NCBI GenBank assembly: GCA_024648695.1
Contig: JACAVV010000008.1
Coordinates: forward strand, 124,001-188,000
DNA: 64,000 bases
DNA from: Nitrospina sp.
GTDB lineage: Bacteria > Nitrospinota > Nitrospinia > Nitrospinales > JACRGP01
Direction: 5' to 3'
Of the stretch, positions 40,884 through 58,979 are shown piece after piece. Within the stretch, counting starts at the first letter, position 1; each line of letters starts with the position of its first letter. The translations under genes and the position numbers were made by a program. The notes beneath the pieces are model-generated. The model was not told the DNA's origin and did not search any database. It saw only the letters and a program-made list of their open reading frames with translations.

Positions 40884-41831
40884 TTACTGTCCGGAAATAT
40901 GTCCCGTACTACCACCGGACGATCCTGAAATATGACCCGAACCGGAGTCCACAGTCACTCCGGATACGTGTGATGAAACCGGTTCCTCATAGCCTCCGGT
41001 TTCTCGGGTTTCTTCCGGAGGACTGATGATTCCGCTGATTCCTGAAACATGTTGGCTTTCCGAACCGCTTGAGCCGGAAATATGGCCCGAACCTGGGTTC
41101 ACATGCCTGCCAGAAACGTGGGTTTCAGGGATTCTTTCGAGGCCACCGGTTTCACGGTGTTCTTCCTGACCACCTGTTTCTCCGCGGTTTCCTCTTCGGG
41201 CTCTTCGTTTTTCACGCCTTTCGCCTCGTTCTTCCCTTCGTTCATTTCTTCTTTCTTTAAATTCTTCTCGCCGGTTGCTTCTTCTCTCACCATATTCCTC
41301 GCGGCGATTTTTTCTTCTTTCACCGAATTCTTCACGACGATTACTTCGCCTTTCTTTCCTTTTTCCGCGGAATTCTTCACGGTTGGAGCGCATTTTTTCA
41401 CGAAACTCTTCTCTGGCTTCACCCACTTTACCCCTGTATTCTCTCCGGGCTTCCCGTTTGTTTTCTCTGTATTCGCCTCTTCCTTCCCGTCCTTCTTCCC
41501 GATACCTGTCTTTAGCATCTCGCTTTTTTTCACGAAACCTGTCCTTGGCATCTCGCTTCTTTTCCCGGAACTTGTCTTTGGCGTCCCGCTTTTTCTCTCT
41601 AAATTTATCTCGACCCTTCCTTCTTTTTTCACGATCATTATCAGCCAAAATAAGTTTATCTGGATTCAAATCATGAATTTGCACATAGCTATTAGGCAGG
41701 GAACTGCTGGGGAAGGCGTTACCTGCTGAGAAAGTGTCAATTCCCTTGGCAAACATGGGGACCGCAAATAAAATAATTCCGGTAAGACATAGTCCGAAAA
41801 TCAATACTGATTTAATTTTTTGACTCATCAA
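40884..41831 (-). CDS. Secreted hendecad-helix and HISG-repeat protein, larger paralogue
   Basis: 315 residues, no known family. Signal peptide about 1-29 (FGLCLTGIILFAVPMFAKG). A linker ends in LILADNDREKRRK, and residues about 65-216 are one uninterrupted Arg/Lys/Glu/Asp helix. Aromatics recur every 11 residues (77, 88, 99, 110, 121, 132, 143, 154; then, after a phase slip, 169, 180, 191), and three near-perfect 11-residue copies of KFREKKRDAKD lie at 76-108. The C-terminal part is two copies of an ETGG...HVSG...GSGHISGSSG unit (227-256 and 277-315) ending GHISGQ. It looks like a long stiff rod with a Gly/Ser/His-rich tip, exported to the periplasm or surface. The smaller paralogue lies immediately upstream. 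Confidence 0.75.
   Translation of the reverse strand: MMSQKIKSVLIFGLCLTGIILFAVPMFAKGIDTFSAGNAFPSSSLPNSYVQIHDLNPDKLILADNDREKRRKGRDKFREKKRDAKDKFREKKRDAKDRFREKKRDAKDRYREEGREGRGEYRENKREARREYRGKVGEAREEFREKMRSNREEFRGKRKERRSNRREEFGERRKNRREEYGERRSNRREEFKERRNERREERGERREKRRARRGNRGETGGQEEHRETGGLERIPETHVSGRHVNPGSGHISGSSGSESQHVSGISGIISPPEETRETGGYEEPVSSHVSGVTVDSGSGHISGSSGGSTGHISGQ
41508..41606 (-). repeat. Three 33-bp tandem repeats within the larger paralogue
   Basis: Codons 76-108 are three nearly identical 11-codon units (FREKKRDAKD plus one Lys/Arg). More diverged units continue towards the 3' end. Confidence 0.7.
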
Positions 41832-41981: not shown

Positions 41982-42515
41982 TTATTGACCGGAAATATGG
42001 CCTGTAGTGCTACCTCCGGAGGACCCCGAAATATGACCCGAACCAGGGCTCACCTGCGCTCCCGAAACATGGGGAGATGGAGGAGTTTCTTCTGTACCTC
42101 CCGTTTCCACGGGTCCCACTTCACCGGACCCTTTTCTTCTTTCACGGAGTTGTTTTCTCTTTTCCATCATATCCTTTCGCCTACTTTCGCGTCTTTCATT
42201 TCTTTTTAGTCTGCGTTCTTCACGAATCGATTTCATATCATCTCGATATTCTTCCCTCGCTTCTCGCTTTTTATCGCGAAATTCTTTTATTGCATCTTTT
42301 CTTCGATCACGATGATCATTGTCAGCTAATATAAGCGGATGCGAATTAATTTCCTGCCTCTCTACCTGGCCAAAAGTTTCTGCCTTTGAGGGCGAAACCA
42401 ACACACCTTCATCACTAAAAGACCCTGACCCTTTAGCAAATGAAGGTCCTGCTAAAAACACCGATCCGGAAACCAAAAGTCCCAAAACCAAAGCTTTATT
42501 CTTTTTCTGGCACAT
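41982..42515 (-). CDS. Secreted hendecad-helix and HISG-repeat protein, smaller paralogue
   Basis: 177 residues with the same architecture as its neighbour. Signal peptide about 1-28 (VLGLLVSGSVFLAGPSFAKG). The shared LILADNDHRDRRK motif follows, then a short charged helix (about 65-130) with aromatics at 79 and 90 (11 apart). One C-terminal unit, ETGGTEETPPSPHVSG then PGSGHISGSSGG, ends GHISGQ. It has its own terminator, so the two genes are separate units that arose by duplication. No function can be assigned; shared expression is suggested by the matching leaders. Confidence 0.72.
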   Translation of the reverse strand: MCQKKNKALVLGLLVSGSVFLAGPSFAKGSGSFSDEGVLVSPSKAETFGQVERQEINSHPLILADNDHRDRRKDAIKEFRDKKREAREEYRDDMKSIREERRLKRNERRESRRKDMMEKRKQLRERRKGSGEVGPVETGGTEETPPSPHVSGAQVSPGSGHISGSSGGSTTGHISGQ

Positions 42516-42657: not shown

Positions 42658-44358
42658 TCAGTTCGTTCCACTCACTGCGGCAGTTTTTACTGCCCTGGAA
42701 TCCTGCATATCCCCCACAAATTCCATAGCAAATCCAGTAGAAGTGCCCTGAACTACGACTGCGCCCCACATGCTTAAAAAGGTGATGTCGGGAAAGCCTC
42801 TTCCTGTACTCTGGTTATTGCCGGGGAAAGAAAGGGGAGCCCTGGATTGCGGCTTAAAAACCAATTGCCCGAAACTGGAACCGGAGGTGCCGAGAATAAA
42901 CTCGGCATCCGGCACGTTGGTTGGATTGATCACGGGATTGTTTTCGCCAACAATAAATATCCGACGGTTGGAATTGGAATTTATAGTGAACTCAATTTCG
43001 CCGAATAGATCGGATCCATTTTCTTTGACCGCCTGAACGACCAGTCCAATTTGAGAATTCATCCCGGAAAGGGAAGGGTGGCTCACATTTAAAAACGTAT
43101 AGGTTTGAGTGTCCGATTGCCAATAAGGTGAAATCACATTGTTTCGGCTACTGCGATCAAAGGGAGTTCCGGAAACATTCGTTTGTCGTATTCGGTAAAT
43201 GGCCCCGTTGGATTGCACATCGGCGACATACAATTCCCCATTTTCATCTTCACCAAAAGCACTGATGGAGATAGAACTGTCCAGCAGGTCGCGAGTATCC
43301 CAGGTATTGGTCGAATTTAAAGTAGCCCCACGAATGATTCCGGTACAAAAGTCACCATAAAAATACACGCCATTCATTTTCGGGTAACGTTTGCCCCGAT
43401 AGCGATATCCACCGGTAACTGAACAATCACCACCATCATGGTTGTATTCCAGAACAGGAAGTACCAAACTTCCATCGTTACAATTTGAGGAAGGATTGAA
43501 ACAATTGGACCCTTCCATCAATCGCCAACCATAATTTTCTCCACCAGAACTGGAAGCCGATTGGAAATCAATCTCTTCGATATCACCTTGTCCGACATCA
43601 CCGATAAACATATCGTGCGTCTCACGGTCAAAAGAAAAACGCCAGGGATTGCGCAAACCATAGGCCCAAATTTCTTCGCGGGCTCCGGCGGTTCCTACAA
43701 AAGGGTTTGAAGAAGGAATGGCAAAAGGCGAACCGCTGTCCACATCAATTCTTAAAATTTTACCGAGCAGATCTCCCAGATCCTGCCCACGATTATTCGG
43801 ATCGTTGGAGGACCCCCCATCGCCGGTGGAAATATATAAAAACCCGTCATTGCCAAATTGCAACTGACCTCCATTATGATTTGAAAAGGGCTGATCTATT
43901 GTCAATAGAATCGATTCGGAACTGCTGTCTGCCAATTGCGGATTGCTGGATACAGAGAACCTCGAGACCACAGTATTTCCATTTGAATCTGTATAATCGA
44001 CATAGAAAAAACCATTGCTTGAATAATTGGGATGGAAAGCTACGCTGAACAAACCTCTCTCAAATCCGGATGTGATTTGAGAACTGATATCCAAAAAAGG
44101 CTGGGGAAGGCTTTGGTTGCCGTCAAATATCAATATTTGCCCCCCCTGGGTTGTGATGAACAGCCGGCCCGATTTGTCGCCAGCGTGAGTGATGGCTATT
44201 GGACTGTTAATGTTATTTGCAACCAATTCGATCTCAATTCCAAGGTCGGATAAAGGAGTGAGCGCTTGTGATGAAGATACTGTTCCAAGTAAAACTATTA
44301 AAGCTATCCAATATTTAAAAATATTGAGCGCTCTGGTTTTTATTGATTTGGTTTCCAT
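42658..44358 (-). CDS. PQQ-dependent sugar dehydrogenase with extra C-terminal domain
   Basis: 566 residues. Signal peptide about 1-32. Residues 40-395 are a soluble glucose/sorbosone dehydrogenase beta-propeller (GSDH). Landmarks are RGLFSVAFHPNY, the catalytic His161 in SNHNGGQLQFGNDG plus LYISTGDGG, WAYGLRNPWRFSFD, and GGYRYRGKRYP. Such enzymes oxidise sugars or aldehydes with PQQ in the periplasm or outside the cell. Residues 406-553 are an additional domain not part of the family (ISPYWQSDTQTYTFL to GFAMEFVGD). It recurs at the N-terminus of the giant YD protein at 58979. The gene stands alone. Confidence 0.85.
   Translation of the reverse strand: METKSIKTRALNIFKYWIALIVLLGTVSSSQALTPLSDLGIEIELVANNINSPIAITHAGDKSGRLFITTQGGQILIFDGNQSLPQPFLDISSQITSGFERGLFSVAFHPNYSSNGFFYVDYTDSNGNTVVSRFSVSSNPQLADSSSESILLTIDQPFSNHNGGQLQFGNDGFLYISTGDGGSSNDPNNRGQDLGDLLGKILRIDVDSGSPFAIPSSNPFVGTAGAREEIWAYGLRNPWRFSFDRETHDMFIGDVGQGDIEEIDFQSASSSGGENYGWRLMEGSNCFNPSSNCNDGSLVLPVLEYNHDGGDCSVTGGYRYRGKRYPKMNGVYFYGDFCTGIIRGATLNSTNTWDTRDLLDSSISISAFGEDENGELYVADVQSNGAIYRIRQTNVSGTPFDRSSRNNVISPYWQSDTQTYTFLNVSHPSLSGMNSQIGLVVQAVKENGSDLFGEIEFTINSNSNRRIFIVGENNPVINPTNVPDAEFILGTSGSSFGQLVFKPQSRAPLSFPGNNQSTGRGFPDITFLSMWGAVVVQGTSTGFAMEFVGDMQDSRAVKTAAVSGTN
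42700..43143 (-). other. Shared unknown domain, copy 1 (C-terminal in the sugar dehydrogenase)
   Basis: Residues 406-553. Landmarks are VISPYWQSDTQTYTFLNVSH, MNSQIGLVVQA, FIVGENNPVINP, FGQLVFKP, GRGFPDITFLSMWGAVVVQG and STGFAMEFVGD. Copy 2 is at 58434-58898. Confidence 0.7.
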
Positions 44359-50667: not shown

Positions 50668-53600
50668 TCAACAGCCGCATTTTTTTCCTAATTGACCCGC
50701 CGAACTATTGATTGTTCTTTGAGCCACTCTTCTTTGGGTGTCGGACCAGGCACTGAAATTTATGCCCCTGTTGGGAATAAGCTTGGTGGTGAACCGATTG
50801 CCAAAGCCACCTTTTACGCCAGCCTTCAATAATTCTTTGAACCGGGTTTTTCTTCCTCTCAATAAATTCCCCATATATTTAGAGGTGGCTGAAGAAACCG
50901 CTCCTGCGGCAAAGGGATTGCCTCCTGATAAAGATCCCGTAACCAAACCCGCAACCGCACCTACCGCACCGCTAAGAAATCCTTTTCCAAAGGCGGCAAA
51001 TTTTTCCAACACATTGCCCTTGCATTGAGAAGCATCGCCCCAGCCATTGATGAGTCCTCCCGCCAGGGGAACCGCAAGTGCGGCGGGAATAGTTCCATCC
51101 GGATCTTTCAGATTGATCGGACTGTTATAAACATAACGGTAGAGGTTGATATCCTCACCTTCAAACCCCAGCGGGTCTTCCGAAACAAATCGGCCGGTAA
51201 ACGGATCGTAATACCGAGCGCGATAATAGAAAAAGCCCGTTCCCGTATCAAATTCCCTTCCTGTAAAGGTGTAGGGGTTGGCAATCCCGGAAGAGTTTGA
51301 TATTGCAGAGCCATTACCATCGAACAATGAAAAATTTCCGTAACTGTCGTAGAGATAGGATTGCTGAACTGCTCCCTGATTGTTGGTAAGGTCGATGATA
51401 TTACCCAATCCGTCTACGATATAAAAATATTCCGTTCCGTCCCGGTCCATGACATGGGGTTCGTCCCGGTCGATGCCGTGAGTGTACCGCGCTCTTGGGT
51501 TGTTTTGATTTTCATCATATTCCCAAAGGATATCTTCATTATCGTAAATATAAATAGTTTCTGAACTACCTGAATTGATTCCAATCCGGCGGTCCATAGG
51601 ATCATAAATGAAAAATATGGTATCCGTGGGAGAGCTGTTTTCATCGGGTCTTTTTTCTACTGTGATCAAGCGGTCGTAACCATCATAGGTCATGGTATCG
51701 ATTTCCCCGGTATCCTTGTCTTCGCGCCGGGTCGCGTTGCCATTGACATCGTATTCGTATTCGAACTTATCATCTTCCTGCAGGCGGTTGGCGTCATCGA
51801 ATATCGAGTCGAGGGTCTGGTTGTCTTCACTCAATCGGTTTCCAACAGGATCGTAATCGAATGTTTGATCGTCATTTCCAGAAACAGGGTCGGTTGCCAA
51901 AACCAGGCGTCCGAGGTCATCGTACAGATAGATCAAACTGGTCTGAGCCGAATTGACCGGGCGCTGAGTATTCAATCCCGTCCTCTGATTTCCTGCGTCA
52001 TAGGGATAACTGACTGAAGAAACCGTTGAATTATTAAGGGTATGGGTCAGACTGGTGAGGTTATTGTTGGCGTCATATACATAGGTCCCGACCACTCCGT
52101 TGGAAAAGGTGGTTTTGGTCTGGCGGTTGAGCGGATCGAACTCGTAATTTACCGATTGTCCGGTAGGGTTCGTGATAGAGGTCAACCGGTTTAAACCGTC
52201 GTAAGTGTAATTGGTGACACCCTCAATGCCATCATTCATCGTTAAACGGTTTCCATAAGCATCGTAGGTGTATGTGATCTGTACTGATGGTTGATTGGAA
52301 GAGCCGGTGGTCGAGGTCGAAAGAATCCTTCCCTGCTGATCGTAAGTTAAAGTCAATTTGCTGTTTTCATCTTCTGCAGTGATCAGATTTCCAACTGAAT
52401 CGAATTCATAAGTAGTGACTGTTTCCTCCGTGATGCTATAGGTATGGGTAGCAATCGCTCCAATGGTAACGTTGGTTGGATTCGAGAGATTGACATTGAT
52501 TTTTTCAACTGGTTCAGGAAGGTTGTCATTCACAATAACCAGGTTAATGGTTTTTTCGGTTTCTCCCGGATTGAAAGTAAGTGTGCTATTGGGTAAAGTG
52601 AAATCCACTCCGCCTCCTGTAGCTGTGCCACTTGCCGAATAATCCACCGTTATCGTGTTAGCGGCGGCTGGAGTCAAAACAACGGTCAGGGGCACCGAAG
52701 GAACCTCTTCTTTACCCTTGGTTTGCGCAGTTTGAAAAGAGACGTTGCGCACGGTTACGGCAAAAGGTTCGTCTGTCAAAAATGGATCATAATCGATAAA
52801 ATCGCTCACCGGACTGCCTTGTCCGTTGGGATTGAATAGACCTCCCGTTCCCGTATCATCAGAATTGTCCAGAGGCCCGGTAGAATGACCCCAGTAATTA
52901 TTTTCTGCTGAAATGGTATTTGCATTTGAATCCATTATGGTCCCAAAGCCCTGGTTGCCCAAAATAATGTTATTGCTTATATTCGGGAATCCCGATTGAA
53001 TGTGAATTCCATCCCCTCCGTTTTGGGTGATCACATTATCCTGTATTGTTGGGGACGCATTATTATGGACATAAATTCCGTGGTTATTGTTTTCCCAAAT
53101 GGTGTTGCCCTGAATTGTTGGAAACGATTTGGGAGGATTGGACCCCGGATCAAAACGCGTGACATATATGGCGGCAGTGGCTTCGACCGTAATCGGTGGG
53201 TTCCCCGCTCCGGTGTCATCGATATTCTGAATGATGTTATTCATTATCGTTGGTGACGCATCGGAAATGCTGATTCCAAAATCGTTAAATTGCAACGTGC
53301 TGTTTTGTATCGTGGTGCTATCTGAATTGATCACCAGAAAATGGTGGCTGTATCTTAAAACGATATGATCCAGAACGCTGTTGGAGCTTGAGGACTGGAA
53401 GAACAAGGATCCCCAGTCGCCTTTAGCGGGCGTTGTGGTATTGCCGTCACCATTCGTATCGCCACCTACGACATCATCCAGAATAGATGTGAAAAATACG
53501 GGATCGTTTTCAGTACCGTTTGCCAAAAAGGTCCCGTTTACGTTGATGTCACTGAAGTTTTGTGTCGGTGGTAATTCCGCTTTGATAATAACTCCGGCAT

Positions 53601-54552
53601 CAATAGTCAGGGTTGTCGAGCCGCCAATATCCAGGCTGGGGCCCGAAGTGTTTGGAGACTTGGCCTTTAAAATATAGGGAAGGTTAGGATCCTTTGTCAA
53701 CGTTGCGTTCTGGGTTAGAAAACCCGAAAGCCCGATGCCATTGAAACCATTTCCGGTGAGGGTATTTGTGGATGTAAAATTACCCAGGGTGCTTGCGATC
53801 CCGTTACCATCCAACGAAAGGGGTTCATTTGTATTATTTTGAATCGCGTTGTTATTGATTGACGATAAATTCGAGGAATCGTGAACCTGTATACCACAGT
53901 CATTGTTTTGAATGGTGTTTCCCGTTAAAACCGGAGTACCGCCACTAATGAGGATCCCGCAAACGGTATTATTCTCCATAGTAAAATTGGTGATGGTGGG
54001 CGAAGCCGACTGAATATCGATGGCGTATTGATTGTTAAACGCAGAAACGCCATCGTTGAGGCTCACGGAGTTTGAAAGGATTTGAATACCAAAGTCACTA
54101 AACCGATATTCAACCTCCTCCAATTGCGAGTTCAGACTGGACGCTCCGAATTTTATAAAGTCCCAATCTCCTGGAGCGGGAGCGGTTGCTCCTCCATTGC
54201 CATTGGTGTCGCCTCCCACGGTATCGTCCTTAATGGATGTGAATACTATTTTATTTAAGTCCGTTCCAATTGCGCTTAACGTTCCATTGATGGTCAAAGA
54301 CCGGTCCACTTCAAATTTTACCACCACACCGGGATCGATGGTCAAGGTAATCCCTGTGTTGATACTGATATTTCCGTCCACAACGTAGGGACTTCCTGCC
54401 GTATCCCAGGTGGTGCCGGTGGTAATATTTTGGGTGATCGTAGTTTGTGCATGACTCCACCCGGAAAATCCTAGTACCAATAGCAGGGATAGGACTCCCA
54501 GGAAAATCCGGTTATTCATTTTTATGGATCGTTTCGGCTCATTCATAATCAT
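50668..54552 (-). CDS. Giant surface protein: beta-helix, Calx-beta, YD repeats and RHS core
   Basis: 1294 residues. Signal peptide MNNRIFLGVLSLLLVLGFSG after 11 extra residues. Residues about 30-600 are a parallel beta-helix (NNDCGIQVHDSSNLSSINNN-type repeats) with two copies of a module marked by DDTVGGDTNGNG...PAPGDW. A Calx-beta domain follows (TGGGVDFTLPNSTLTFNPGE), then about twenty YD repeats (YEYDVNGNATRR) and the RHS core (RYYDPFTGRFVSEDPLGFEG; NLYRYVYNSPINLKDPDG). The last 141 residues are unlike known toxin tips and end KKCGC. The ATG overlaps the upstream stop (ATGA). A surface or extracellular role is likely. Confidence 0.82.
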   Translation of the reverse strand: MIMNEPKRSIKMNNRIFLGVLSLLLVLGFSGWSHAQTTITQNITTGTTWDTAGSPYVVDGNISINTGITLTIDPGVVVKFEVDRSLTINGTLSAIGTDLNKIVFTSIKDDTVGGDTNGNGGATAPAPGDWDFIKFGASSLNSQLEEVEYRFSDFGIQILSNSVSLNDGVSAFNNQYAIDIQSASPTITNFTMENNTVCGILISGGTPVLTGNTIQNNDCGIQVHDSSNLSSINNNAIQNNTNEPLSLDGNGIASTLGNFTSTNTLTGNGFNGIGLSGFLTQNATLTKDPNLPYILKAKSPNTSGPSLDIGGSTTLTIDAGVIIKAELPPTQNFSDINVNGTFLANGTENDPVFFTSILDDVVGGDTNGDGNTTTPAKGDWGSLFFQSSSSNSVLDHIVLRYSHHFLVINSDSTTIQNSTLQFNDFGISISDASPTIMNNIIQNIDDTGAGNPPITVEATAAIYVTRFDPGSNPPKSFPTIQGNTIWENNNHGIYVHNNASPTIQDNVITQNGGDGIHIQSGFPNISNNIILGNQGFGTIMDSNANTISAENNYWGHSTGPLDNSDDTGTGGLFNPNGQGSPVSDFIDYDPFLTDEPFAVTVRNVSFQTAQTKGKEEVPSVPLTVVLTPAAANTITVDYSASGTATGGGVDFTLPNSTLTFNPGETEKTINLVIVNDNLPEPVEKINVNLSNPTNVTIGAIATHTYSITEETVTTYEFDSVGNLITAEDENSKLTLTYDQQGRILSTSTTGSSNQPSVQITYTYDAYGNRLTMNDGIEGVTNYTYDGLNRLTSITNPTGQSVNYEFDPLNRQTKTTFSNGVVGTYVYDANNNLTSLTHTLNNSTVSSVSYPYDAGNQRTGLNTQRPVNSAQTSLIYLYDDLGRLVLATDPVSGNDDQTFDYDPVGNRLSEDNQTLDSIFDDANRLQEDDKFEYEYDVNGNATRREDKDTGEIDTMTYDGYDRLITVEKRPDENSSPTDTIFFIYDPMDRRIGINSGSSETIYIYDNEDILWEYDENQNNPRARYTHGIDRDEPHVMDRDGTEYFYIVDGLGNIIDLTNNQGAVQQSYLYDSYGNFSLFDGNGSAISNSSGIANPYTFTGREFDTGTGFFYYRARYYDPFTGRFVSEDPLGFEGEDINLYRYVYNSPINLKDPDGTIPAALAVPLAGGLINGWGDASQCKGNVLEKFAAFGKGFLSGAVGAVAGLVTGSLSGGNPFAAGAVSSATSKYMGNLLRGRKTRFKELLKAGVKGGFGNRFTTKLIPNRGINFSAWSDTQRRVAQRTINSSAGQLGKKCGC
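50671..51093 (-). other. Variable C-terminal tip after the RHS core
   Basis: The 141 residues after DPDG are Gly/Ala-rich at first (GFLSGAVGAVAGLVTGSLSG) and then basic (KELLKAGVKGGFGNRFTTKL). I recognise no nuclease or deaminase motif. No small gene that could be an immunity partner lies downstream. Confidence 0.45.
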
Positions 54553-57500
54553 TGAATCGTAAAAGTGTGCACAATATTGGGTCCCAGGTCAGAATTTGTG
54601 GGATTGGATAATGTGATTTCTATCGTTTCATTCGGATCGTTCACTCCATCGTCGACAACGGCAATGTCAATGGTTTTGGAGATCTCACCCGGTGAGAAAG
54701 TGAGGGCTCCATTGGCAAGAGTAAAGTCGACGCCTCCGCCCGTCGCAGTTCCACCGCTAACGATATAATCGACCGTGATGGTTTGAGGGAGGACTGCTGA
54801 AAGTGTTACCGAAATGGAAGCGGGAGTTTCATCTTCGGCCCCTTCCGATTGGGTCGCGTTGAATTCCACGAGAGGATTGGCTTTGGACAAAATTGTCTTT
54901 CGTATTAAACGATCAAGCCCGTCGTATTCCAAAAAGATGGGTTGACCGTCTCTTTTAACCTTAAAGGTAATATTTCCATTAGCATCGTATTGATAAGTTT
55001 CCTGATTGCCCACCGGGTCGGTCCTGGATACCAAAAAGTCCCGCTCATCGTAAGCGTATTGCGTCGTGTTCCCTCGTCCATCAGTGATTACCGTTTCATT
55101 ACCGTTGGCATCGTATTCGAAACAGGTGACGCCGGAGGTGCCGCATGGTGGATCGGTATCCGAATTGGTATCATCAATGGCTTTAGTCACCCGGTTCAAG
55201 GCATCGTATTGATAGCGGACCGACCTTCCAAGGGCGTCTGTGGTTTTGGAAACATTTCCGGTCGAATCGTATTCCTGCTGAATCGTGTTTCCCAGAGGAT
55301 CGGTGATCTTTTTCAAATTGCAACAATCATCATATTCGCTTATCAAGCGGGATTCTTGCGAAAGCCCAACCGCGGACGTTATTTTGGTTACCAGGCCGGG
55401 ACAATCGGGATCTTCGTATTTAAACTCGGTTTGGGTTCCCATTGCATCGGTGCTTCGAATGAGGTTTCCTGATGCATCGTATTCGAACGTTTCCTCGTTA
55501 CCATTGGGATCTGAAAATGATGTTTCTTTGTTAAAGGTGGATTCGTATGTAAACGTGTTTGTCGAATCCCCGTTCGTATTCGACTCCGTGGCTGTTAAAA
55601 CATTGCCCGAGGAATCGTAAGTAAACGTGGTGATGGACCCGTCCGGAAGCGTGATTAAAGTGGGAAGACCATTTTCATCCCTCACGGTTGTCGTGACATT
55701 ACCCAAAGGATCTGTTTTCGAGGTGGTTGCGCCAAAACTGTCCACCTCATAAATTGTTTGGTTCCCGTTGCCATCGGTGTAGGTGGATTTAACCTTTCCA
55801 AAAAATACCAGGGGAGCGGGATTCCCTTCAGTTCCAAAACCCGAATCCGGATCGACCAGGCCCACAACCTGAATCGGTTCCACGGTTGCCGTAGAATTAT
55901 CAGGTCGAGTGACCTTGGTGTTTCTTCCGGCAAAGTTGTAATCGTAATTGGTTACAAATCCGTTTTTGGATGTTTGCGAAGTCATACGATGATTGGAATC
56001 GTATCCGAATTGCCTGATGGATCCATCGGGATCTGTTATTTTTGTGAGATTGTCATTCCCGTCATATTGAAATGAAGTGGTTCGGTTTGCAGGATCGACC
56101 ACTGAGCTTAAAAGATCATTCGTGTAAGATAAACGAAACGCTTTGCCCACAGGATCCAGTATCACGGCGAGTTTCCCCGTCCCATCATAAATGTAGCTTT
56201 TCGTATTTCCGTTACGGTCCACCGTTTTAAAATGCCGGCCTTGCGTATCAAAGAACACTTCCGTTCCGTCTTTAAACCTTAAAATTGCGGACCCATCCCC
56301 TTTCCTGGTAAGTGTGGTGAAGCTTCCCGGAGGACCGGACAGCTCGTTTTCCCCAAGGGTGCATTGTGAGCACCGGTAGGCCTGTATACTTCCATCCCCC
56401 TGGGAGATAGCCAGATCAAAACTGATCCACCTGATCGCACCGTTGGGAAAGATGCCCGGGACCACATTGGAGGTGGTCATTTTAAAGGTGTCCGACAGGC
56501 CCCATCCCGCACCAAACGGACTTTGGTTCCGATTGTGAACCAGTACACGGCCCGATTTGATTGCAGCAATAGAACTGGAAAGAAAGTTGTTTTTAATAAG
56601 CATCCTGTAAAGATGGACACCCGTGGCAAGGCTATTGGCATCGAATTGTCTCGCCTGACGATAGACCTCTTCAACGTCTTCATTCAGGACCGAGGTGTCC
56701 GTGAATACCTCTGCATCCTGAATAACCCCATCTATTTCCAGATTCGTAGAAACGGTAAGAGGAACGGCGCTTACCACCGGATTGGTCACCTTGGAAACAA
56801 TAATGGGTCGGGGGTCCGCCGTCAGGCTGTTGTAGATGAGGGCCATTTCCTGGATCTGGTTGAATGACTTGTAGGACGCTAAAGGATGAATGATGGTCAA
56901 ATGGCCCGCGCAAAGGGTGGTTTGAGAGCCCGTGCATTCTTTCTCTTCTTTTTTTCTATCATCATTTTCCTCATTATTTTCACCTTCATCCGTTTCCGGT
57001 TCCGGCGGCATCATGGTGTGCCAGCTGGCTAAAGACAATCCTCCTGAAATGGTTTCAATGATGCCATCGTCATTGACCTGTGCCTGGCCAACGATTGAAA
57101 ATGTTCCTGTATCCGGATTCACAGACCAAATATCGAGAAGCGTTCCGGAGGGCAAATCATCTACATTTGGAAAAGTGATTGGTACCGGATTCGTAAAAAT
57201 CAAGCCCGCAGGTTGCACGGTGATCAATAATCCAGGATTGATATTTTCCGGTAAAGCCACAGGCGCCAGGTTTTCGGGCACCTCGGATATGGATACCTCG
57301 CCGGTGAAATCCGAATTATCTTCATTCTTCGCATTTCCAGCTGAAATGGAAATACTCACTCCCAGATTGGAATTATTGACTTCCGTGGTGGCCATCGGGT
57401 TGACGGTAGTAAGACTATTACCGTCAATACGAGGCAGATAAAAGGGACGTTGGATTGTATTCTTTGCGTCCTCTATCATTAACCCTTCCCGGAAACTGGC

Positions 57501-58979
57501 GTATTCCGATTCATCCGGAGCCGGGTCCGCGGTGGTCGCATCAATATCCAAAACCTGCTCCCCCGTGGGGATATTGGTCAGAACAAAATTTCCATTAGAA
57601 TCCGTGGTAGTAGATATCCCGGTTCCCTTTAAAGAAACCGTGGCTCCCACTATGGGCAACTCACCGTCGGTGTTCACGGCCACGTTGGTGTCCAACACCT
57701 GGCCGCTTAATTCTACGGTAATGATGGAATAAGTATGTGTGGTGTTCGTTCCCAATGATGCGTTTGAGGCATTGGACAAAGTGATTTCCAAAGTTTCATC
57801 GGACTCTGATTGTCCATCGTCTACGACGGACAGGATGATATCTTTGGATATTTCTCCCGGAGTAAAACTCAATGTGCCGCCATCGGTATTAGCGATGCTG
57901 TAGTCGGTGTTTAAAACGGCTGTCCCGCCGGTTACTGCATATTGAACCGAAACCGAGGCACCCGATGCCGCGGATAAAGACACGGCGATGGGAACATCGC
58001 TTGTCTCTTCTGATGCACCGGCGGTGGTTTGATCAAAAGCGACGCTGGGTGTCGATTCATCATCCAGAATGGTATAGGTAAATGAAGAGGTCCCAAGGTT
58101 TGCATTGCTGGCATCGGATAAATTCAGGCTGATAGTTTCATTGCTTTCAGCCAGGGCATCATCCACAATCAGAACGTTAATATTTTTACTGGTTTCCCCT
58201 GGGGCGAAGGACAGAGAGCCATTGGACAAAACATAATCGGCACCCGACCCCGATGCCGTTCCGCCACTTACCGAGTAATTCACGTTAACCGTTGATGGGG
58301 AGGCCTGGTTTAGCACAACCGGGACATTCACATCAAATGAGGACTCGGAACCACTGGATGAAATCGTATTGAATCCCACAGTTACATCACCCGAAGGCGC
58401 GATGCCTCCACGGGGCTGGGCTACCGAATCATGATGGTCCCCAACAAATTCCATGGCAAATCCGGTGCTGGTACTTTGTACCACCACCGCACCCCATAAA
58501 CTCAACATGGTGATATCAGGGTGTCCCCGGCCTTCAGAGTTAGTATTGCCAGCGTAGCTCTCTGGGTCACTTGCGATGGGGCTGAAGGCTAATTGCCCTT
58601 GAGCTCCAGAACCGGTTTTTACAATGAGAAGTTCGGAGGGAAAATTGCCGGGATTAAAAATCGGATCGTTGGTGGTGACAATAAAAACTTTTTTCGTTTG
58701 ATTACGTGAAATGGTAAATTCATAAATTCCATTCGGATTTGGAGATTCAAAAACTCCACTTTTCGAACCATCTTTTAATTGCGCCTGTATTCGAACCCCA
58801 ATTTGGGAGTTCATAAAAGTCAATGAAGGGTGGCTAATGGCCAGGAAAGTATAGGAGCCTGAATCGGTTTGCCAGTAAGGTGAAACTATGGAGGATTTGT
58901 TTTCAACGGCGTTCACGGATCCCTGTAAAAACAGGGTCAAAGCCAGTAAGCAGAAAAGAATTGTTTTTAACCGCAACAT
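54549..58979 (-). CDS. Giant secreted Calx-beta and YD-repeat protein
   Basis: 1476 residues. Signal peptide about 1-24. The shared unknown domain (28-182) is followed by two Calx-beta domains (about 198-307 and 311-420) and a carboxypeptidase-regulatory-like domain (about 424-515, VGATVSLKGTGISTTTDSNG). A ZU5-like beta region (about 538-660, VQPAGLIFTNPVPITFPNVD) and an acidic linker come next, then the HNRNQSPFGAGWGLSD motif that often opens YD arrays. About twenty YD repeats (900-1370) and a final Calx-beta domain end abruptly at VHTFTIQ. The stop overlaps the next giant gene by four bases. Probably an extracellular calcium-binding adhesin or scaffold acting with its neighbour. Confidence 0.8.
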   Translation of the reverse strand: MLRLKTILFCLLALTLFLQGSVNAVENKSSIVSPYWQTDSGSYTFLAISHPSLTFMNSQIGVRIQAQLKDGSKSGVFESPNPNGIYEFTISRNQTKKVFIVTTNDPIFNPGNFPSELLIVKTGSGAQGQLAFSPIASDPESYAGNTNSEGRGHPDITMLSLWGAVVVQSTSTGFAMEFVGDHHDSVAQPRGGIAPSGDVTVGFNTISSSGSESSFDVNVPVVLNQASPSTVNVNYSVSGGTASGSGADYVLSNGSLSFAPGETSKNINVLIVDDALAESNETISLNLSDASNANLGTSSFTYTILDDESTPSVAFDQTTAGASEETSDVPIAVSLSAASGASVSVQYAVTGGTAVLNTDYSIANTDGGTLSFTPGEISKDIILSVVDDGQSESDETLEITLSNASNASLGTNTTHTYSIITVELSGQVLDTNVAVNTDGELPIVGATVSLKGTGISTTTDSNGNFVLTNIPTGEQVLDIDATTADPAPDESEYASFREGLMIEDAKNTIQRPFYLPRIDGNSLTTVNPMATTEVNNSNLGVSISISAGNAKNEDNSDFTGEVSISEVPENLAPVALPENINPGLLITVQPAGLIFTNPVPITFPNVDDLPSGTLLDIWSVNPDTGTFSIVGQAQVNDDGIIETISGGLSLASWHTMMPPEPETDEGENNEENDDRKKEEKECTGSQTTLCAGHLTIIHPLASYKSFNQIQEMALIYNSLTADPRPIIVSKVTNPVVSAVPLTVSTNLEIDGVIQDAEVFTDTSVLNEDVEEVYRQARQFDANSLATGVHLYRMLIKNNFLSSSIAAIKSGRVLVHNRNQSPFGAGWGLSDTFKMTTSNVVPGIFPNGAIRWISFDLAISQGDGSIQAYRCSQCTLGENELSGPPGSFTTLTRKGDGSAILRFKDGTEVFFDTQGRHFKTVDRNGNTKSYIYDGTGKLAVILDPVGKAFRLSYTNDLLSSVVDPANRTTSFQYDGNDNLTKITDPDGSIRQFGYDSNHRMTSQTSKNGFVTNYDYNFAGRNTKVTRPDNSTATVEPIQVVGLVDPDSGFGTEGNPAPLVFFGKVKSTYTDGNGNQTIYEVDSFGATTSKTDPLGNVTTTVRDENGLPTLITLPDGSITTFTYDSSGNVLTATESNTNGDSTNTFTYESTFNKETSFSDPNGNEETFEYDASGNLIRSTDAMGTQTEFKYEDPDCPGLVTKITSAVGLSQESRLISEYDDCCNLKKITDPLGNTIQQEYDSTGNVSKTTDALGRSVRYQYDALNRVTKAIDDTNSDTDPPCGTSGVTCFEYDANGNETVITDGRGNTTQYAYDERDFLVSRTDPVGNQETYQYDANGNITFKVKRDGQPIFLEYDGLDRLIRKTILSKANPLVEFNATQSEGAEDETPASISVTLSAVLPQTITVDYIVSGGTATGGGVDFTLANGALTFSPGEISKTIDIAVVDDGVNDPNETIEITLSNPTNSDLGPNIVHTFTIQ
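58434..58898 (-). other. Shared unknown domain, copy 2 (N-terminal in the giant YD protein)
   Basis: Residues 28-182. Landmarks are IVSPYWQTDSGSYTFLAISH, MNSQIGVRIQA, FIVTTNDPIFNP, GQLAFSP, GRGHPDITMLSLWGAVVVQS and STGFAMEFVGD. These match copy 1 at 42700-43143 in order and spacing. Confidence 0.72.

Follow-up and report, generated by a model that had tools for sequence, protein, structure and literature searches.

A Nitrospinota-specific domain at the C-terminus of some forty exported proteins: a possible surface-sorting and attachment tag

Known C-terminal addresses and the two copies in the window

The C-terminal domains (CTDs) of type IX secretion, of which type A and type B are found in Bacteroidota, are secretion signals which are recognised by an outer-membrane translocon and may be cleaved after export (PMC9143113). 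They occur on exported proteins of many otherwise unrelated kinds that have signal peptides, among them proteases and giant repeat adhesins. PEP-CTERM, GlyGly-CTERM and LPXTG sequences also serve as a C-terminal address on many exported proteins, and in these the address is a motif followed by a transmembrane helix and a basic tail. The Nitrospinota are major marine nitrite oxidisers, and no surface-sorting system described for this phylum was found in the literature that we searched. The Nitrospinota domain considered here resembles the type IX CTDs in its position and in the kinds of protein that carry it. It differs from them in being larger (~160 residues), in lacking any match to CTD models, and in existing also as free-standing secreted paralogues, which we call A and B. 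In contrast to the motif-and-helix addresses, it is folded, ends in G-x-N and has no helix.

The window, by which we mean the whole 64,000-nucleotide stretch of a Nitrospina genome that was analysed, contains two copies of the domain, both on the minus strand. Copy 1 occupies residues 405-566, the extreme C-terminus, of a 566-aa exported protein (42658..44358, minus strand) in which a signal peptide, recognised by its hydrophobic N-terminus, is followed by a GSDH-type beta-propeller (Pfam match at residues 51-389, E 2.6e-44). The profile match extends to the last residue of this protein, so that copy 1 spans 42661..43146 and does not stop at 42700 as had been proposed, and its tail SGTN (42661..42672) is a G-x-N end. 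Copy 2 (~58419..58898; residues 28-187) lies directly after the predicted signal peptide (MLRLKTILFCLLALTLFLQGSVNA.., 58905..58979, from sequence and hydropathy) of a 1476-aa YD-repeat protein (54549..58979, minus strand). In N- to C-terminal order, the remainder of that protein comprises Calx-beta, a carboxypeptidase-regulatory-like domain, RHS/YD repeats and a further Calx-beta (Pfam RHS_repeat, Calx-beta and CarbopepD_reg_2). BLASTP aligned residues 405-556 of the first protein with residues 28-187 of the second at 53% identity and 69% positives over ~160 residues (167 bits, E 1e-47); the next-best segment between the two proteins scored just 18 bits. The homology along the length of the domain that a sequence-only reading of this DNA had put forward is therefore upheld, and all of the conserved blocks which it named were found in the same order.

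Some features of the neighbourhood are recorded here for completeness. The YD-repeat gene carrying copy 2 overlaps a second, downstream YD-repeat gene (50668-54552, minus strand) by four bases. The downstream gene encodes its own signal peptide, a beta-helix and an RHS core and has no copy of the domain; the upstream gene has the domain and no RHS core. Beside the GSDH gene, two adjoining genes (40884-41831 and 41982-42515, minus strand) encode exported proteins without Pfam families, both with a long middle part in which Arg, Lys and Glu abound and with C-termini that resemble each other and contain many HISGSSGGSTGHISGQ-type repeats, and these look like paralogues.

A C-terminal family confined to Nitrospinota

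A profile built from both window copies matched the host genome 47 times; 44 of these matches are substantial and three are short remnants. In the fetched regions 44 distinct domain-bearing ORFs were counted (one ORF seen twice, in overlapping regions, was counted once). In 40 of the 44, all multi-domain proteins of 484 to >3,000 residues with open frames of up to 5,370 codons, the domain stops at the C-terminus or a few residues short of it. That leaves four ORFs: the YD-repeat protein of the window, two adjacent free-standing proteins of ~200 residues each (L096: 5767-6372 and 6434-7042) and a 120-codon fragment. From the window pair alone it had seemed that the domain sits inherently at opposite ends of unrelated proteins. 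This does not hold: the two copies are a sample of a large family which follows a C-terminal rule, and copy 2 is the single exception, the sole N-terminal copy on a large protein in the host genome. Two copies are damaged, one of the 40 having lost its normal C-terminus (L109:6602-8053) and the 120-codon fragment being truncated at its N-terminus (L113:5969-6328).

The carboxyl end itself is strongly constrained. Gly at -3 and Asn at -1 are found in 42 of the 43 host-genome proteins whose domain reaches the C-terminus, and 39 of the 40 C-terminal multi-domain copies end in G-x-N, usually as (F/V)SG(V/L/I)N, with FSGVN, FSGLN, FSGIN and VSGVN the commonest forms. The residues just ahead of this end are variable and of low confidence in the AlphaFold model, and retention of G-x-N after such a stretch is unlikely unless something reads that end. 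Among relatives, the end differs by type, being SGVN or GPxAP in A-type proteins, RGIN in B-type proteins and SGxN in most fusions, with GPxAP in three; since several A proteins and a few fusions thus end in GPxAP, the SGxN end is not universal.

Upstream of the domain, the host proteins contain NHL propellers, FG-GAP with Calx-beta, SBBP with DUF7948, GSDH, reprolysin-like M12 peptidases, S8 subtilases, HYR and DUF5650 repeats. Most of those with an intact start have a hydrophobic, signal-like N-terminus by hydropathy. These architectures are of typical extracellular types, and the earlier expectation that the carriers are secreted fits proteins which look exported.

Of 387 genomes searched with a 60-row profile, 40 carry the domain; each belongs to the Nitrospinota, which contribute 77 genomes to the set, and the remaining 310 gave no match. 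The host genome is extreme with its 47 matches; 9 and 11 were counted in two genomes of another genus in its family, and between 1 and 6 in most of the rest. A scan of 84,980 species, which was seed-based and so limited in sensitivity by its seeds, returned Nitrospinota loci only, apart from two small contigs (L049 and L053; OFTM124 and OFTM50), 3.9 and 5.0 kb long, which bear the labels Alpha- and Gammaproteobacteria. We do not accept these as proteobacterial members: their copies fall among those of Nitrospinaceae MAGs from the sampling series to which the contigs themselves belong, and the contigs are probably misbinned. A mobile or viral origin was likewise rejected, no relative being present in IMG/VR, phage or plasmid records. 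Searches of Pfam and NCBIfam with both window copies and the 60 aligned members gave chance matches only, a PDB sequence search gave no match, and searches of the literature brought up no account of the domain. It is thus, as the sequence-only reading supposed, undescribed and confined to one phylum in everything searched: a real, unnamed, lineage-specific family that forms a C-terminal tag on about 40 exported proteins of the host genome.

The same kind of placement might suggest that current models overlook an ordinary type IX CTD, PEP-CTERM, LPXTG or autotransporter domain. Even at E values up to 1, however, NCBIfam sorting-domain models matched neither the window copies nor any of the 60 aligned members, and the SprA/Sov translocon (TIGR04189) was found in 0 of 77 Nitrospinota genomes, with 122 of the 387 genomes overall serving as a working control. 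There is no C-terminal transmembrane helix or basic tail, the ends being polar (..DSRA..NFSGVN), and the modelled domain is a sandwich of ~160 residues and not the 12-strand outer-membrane barrel of an autotransporter. We regard this explanation as scarcely credible, and any tag function would be analogous to type IX secretion and not part of it. The host genome does encode a single EpsH-type exosortase (L129, G000:C21:7169-7948), so that a PEP-CTERM-like route may coexist with the domain.

A predicted fold resembling TM1070 and ASRT

AlphaFold models of copy 1 (pLDDT 80.6, pTM 0.77) and copy 2 (pLDDT 73.3, pTM 0.70) both show a beta sandwich of nine strands in identical order, in agreement with the compact beta domain that had been suggested from the sequence. 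For both models the best PDB match in VIA-align is TM1070 (1nc7), followed by ASRT entries. The 1nc7 alignments (Z 9.7, 2.5 A over 104 residues for copy 1; Z 10.1, 2.5 A over 105 residues for copy 2) stand clear of the unrelated rows. Best Z values of 7 to 8 are common in VIA-align without kinship; scores of 9.7 to 10.1, with one family filling the top rows for two models, are better than this chance level but not proof, and the two models are not fully independent because they share most of their alignment. Foldseek alone gave no match under E 0.001. On these models the domain probably has a fold of known type, a TM1070-like beta sandwich.

Proteins of the ASRT/ASRAH superfamily (PF07100), which includes secreted members, are marked by a Trp in strand 1 and an Asn at the end of strand 2 (PMC2739507). 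In the Nitrospinota domain a Trp is conserved late in strand 1 of A-type copies and replaced by Ala in most B types, and an invariant His, close to the end of strand 2, takes the place of the ASRAH Asn; both equivalences were judged by eye. PF07100 itself gave no match in hmmscans of the domain or in 21 related genomes (Thermotoga being the positive control), and hhalign of A2 against the ASRT alignment returned a probability of 0.15%, which is to say no sequence relation. Homology to ASRT at the sequence level was accordingly rejected, and we claim similarity of fold but not membership. The two share the sandwich, as the top structural match of both models, whereas the Nitrospinota domain adds long loops and a conserved free C-terminus.

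This similarity bears on the possibility that the domain is a carbohydrate- or ligand-binding module, whose target might be a glycan of the cell's own capsule or LPS or a marine polysaccharide, and whose terminal position is incidental. The ASRT/ASRAH superfamily has been predicted to bind sugars (PMC2739507), and carbohydrate-binding modules appear lower in the VIA-align list for copy 1. Set against this, the ASRAH pocket signature SHEshChhN is not present in the domain and the profile comparison gives no ASRT relation, while the free carboxyl end is as conserved as the sandwich, for which plain binding would have no need. We consider a binding module of this kind unlikely; binding to the cell's own glycan, moreover, would merge with an attachment function.

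The A-B locus and a possible attachment function

The most conserved form of the domain is a pair of secreted proteins of ~200 residues, A and B, whose genes adjoin that of a TPR lipoprotein and, in most cases, pilT/pilU. In three families (f1 to f3) the order is A-B, or A alone in some genera, and then in most genomes the TPR lipoprotein, the A-B locus being divergent from TPR protein-RodZ-PilT-PilU. A fourth family (f4) keeps A-B-TPR without the pil genes, and in a class-level outgroup (f5, G061) an A-like protein directly precedes a TPR gene; the product of this gene and its counterpart in the host genome share 37% identity. A TPR orthologue (338-460 bits) is present in 34 of 77 Nitrospinota genomes. 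Its occurrence follows that of the domain, with both present in 31 genomes, neither in 34, the domain only in 9 and the TPR protein only in 3 (Fisher p 4e-10, uncorrected for shared descent). Common ancestry bears on the synteny as well as on this co-occurrence. Two genomes that are 92-94% complete (G026 and G032) lack a TPR orthologue although they carry A'-B' pairs and a fused protein, and the TPR lipoprotein therefore cannot be a receptor that every fusion requires. There are TPR domains that bind free C-terminal peptides, and this property together with the synteny makes the lipoprotein a candidate, and perhaps the actual, docking partner of the domain. A second locus, A'-B'-C, is common in f2 (L055, L060, L063, L073 and L074); C, which follows this second free-standing pair, is an M12-like peptidase with the domain, and a nearby gene resembles, by eye, the iron-sulfur repair protein YtfE/Ric.

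Free-standing A is found in 20 of the 21 genomes that carry fused copies. In the tree, whose root and deep branches are uncertain, most B-type proteins fall on one side and the A-type proteins with all fused copies on the other, and fused copies group near the A proteins of their own family. Judged by this tree, the fused copies are descendants of the A type. One B-type copy is apparently fused behind a Calx-beta-like stretch (G045, L136:1500-2243), which indicates that B-type domains can also form the C-terminal part of larger proteins. The N-terminal copy of the window groups with the A protein of the host genome and a few fusions with weak support (SH-aLRT 85). The layout of the YD-repeat protein, a signal peptide and then the domain, is also that of free-standing A, and this protein may be an extended form of A, to which a long stretch was added at the C-terminus.

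An address or attachment tag is the best explanation of a domain which is spread over many exported proteins, is nearly always terminal and has a fixed carboxyl end. The sorting or attachment role that we infer would run as follows. Signal peptides would carry the exported host proteins across the inner membrane, after which the folded C-terminal sandwich and its free G-x-N end would dock each protein on a shared cell-surface partner. The tag would derive from free-standing secreted A, encoded with its paralogue B and the TPR lipoprotein, and fused copies would then probably use the docking partner or the assembly of A and B. Four elements of this scheme, namely export, location at the surface, docking and the partner itself, are inferred; on the whole, we give a C-terminal surface-sorting and attachment tag an even chance of being correct. 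More tentatively, and with rather less confidence, it is conceivable that the Nitrospinota possess a C-terminal sorting system of their own, unrelated to type IX, in which a dedicated envelope partner (possibly the TPR lipoprotein, acting in the manner of a carboxylate clamp) reads the TM1070-like sandwich and the free G-x-N end, and that the tag has been copied onto ~40 exported proteins in one lineage.

Alternatively, the domain could be a secretion signal proper, recognised by an outer-membrane translocon, needed for export and perhaps cleaved in the type IX manner. Type IX CTDs act in this way (PMC9143113), and such a signal would be expected to sit, as the domain does, at the C-terminus of diverse proteins (40 in this case) and to have its free carboxyl end fixed. 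Free-standing A and B, however, are almost bare domain; this is more in keeping with a structural or binding role and leads us to favour attachment over a cleaved export signal. One copy, furthermore, is N-terminal, following a signal peptide, and in addition to the absence of SprA from the phylum there is no translocon beside the A-B locus, the nearest secretion-related genes being pilT/pilU. A secretion signal proper is, in our judgement, improbable. We think it less probable still that A, B and the fused copies are building blocks which polymerise into a surface fibre or lattice, with the fusions displayed by co-assembly. The tandem paralogues A and B do occur in most domain-bearing genomes beside genes for pilus retraction ATPases, and TM1070/ASRT proteins form tetramers (PMC2739507), but pilT/pilU are transcribed divergently and neither A nor B has a pilin match. 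Co-assembly could in any case be a sub-case of the attachment tag.

Since about 40 proteins of one genome are marked by it, the domain would allow the exported or surface proteins of this lineage to be read from sequence, and A, B and the TPR lipoprotein provide a concrete candidate locus for the sorting machinery. If an attachment and sorting function holds, it would mean that sorting by a C-terminal domain exists in a phylum without a type IX system.
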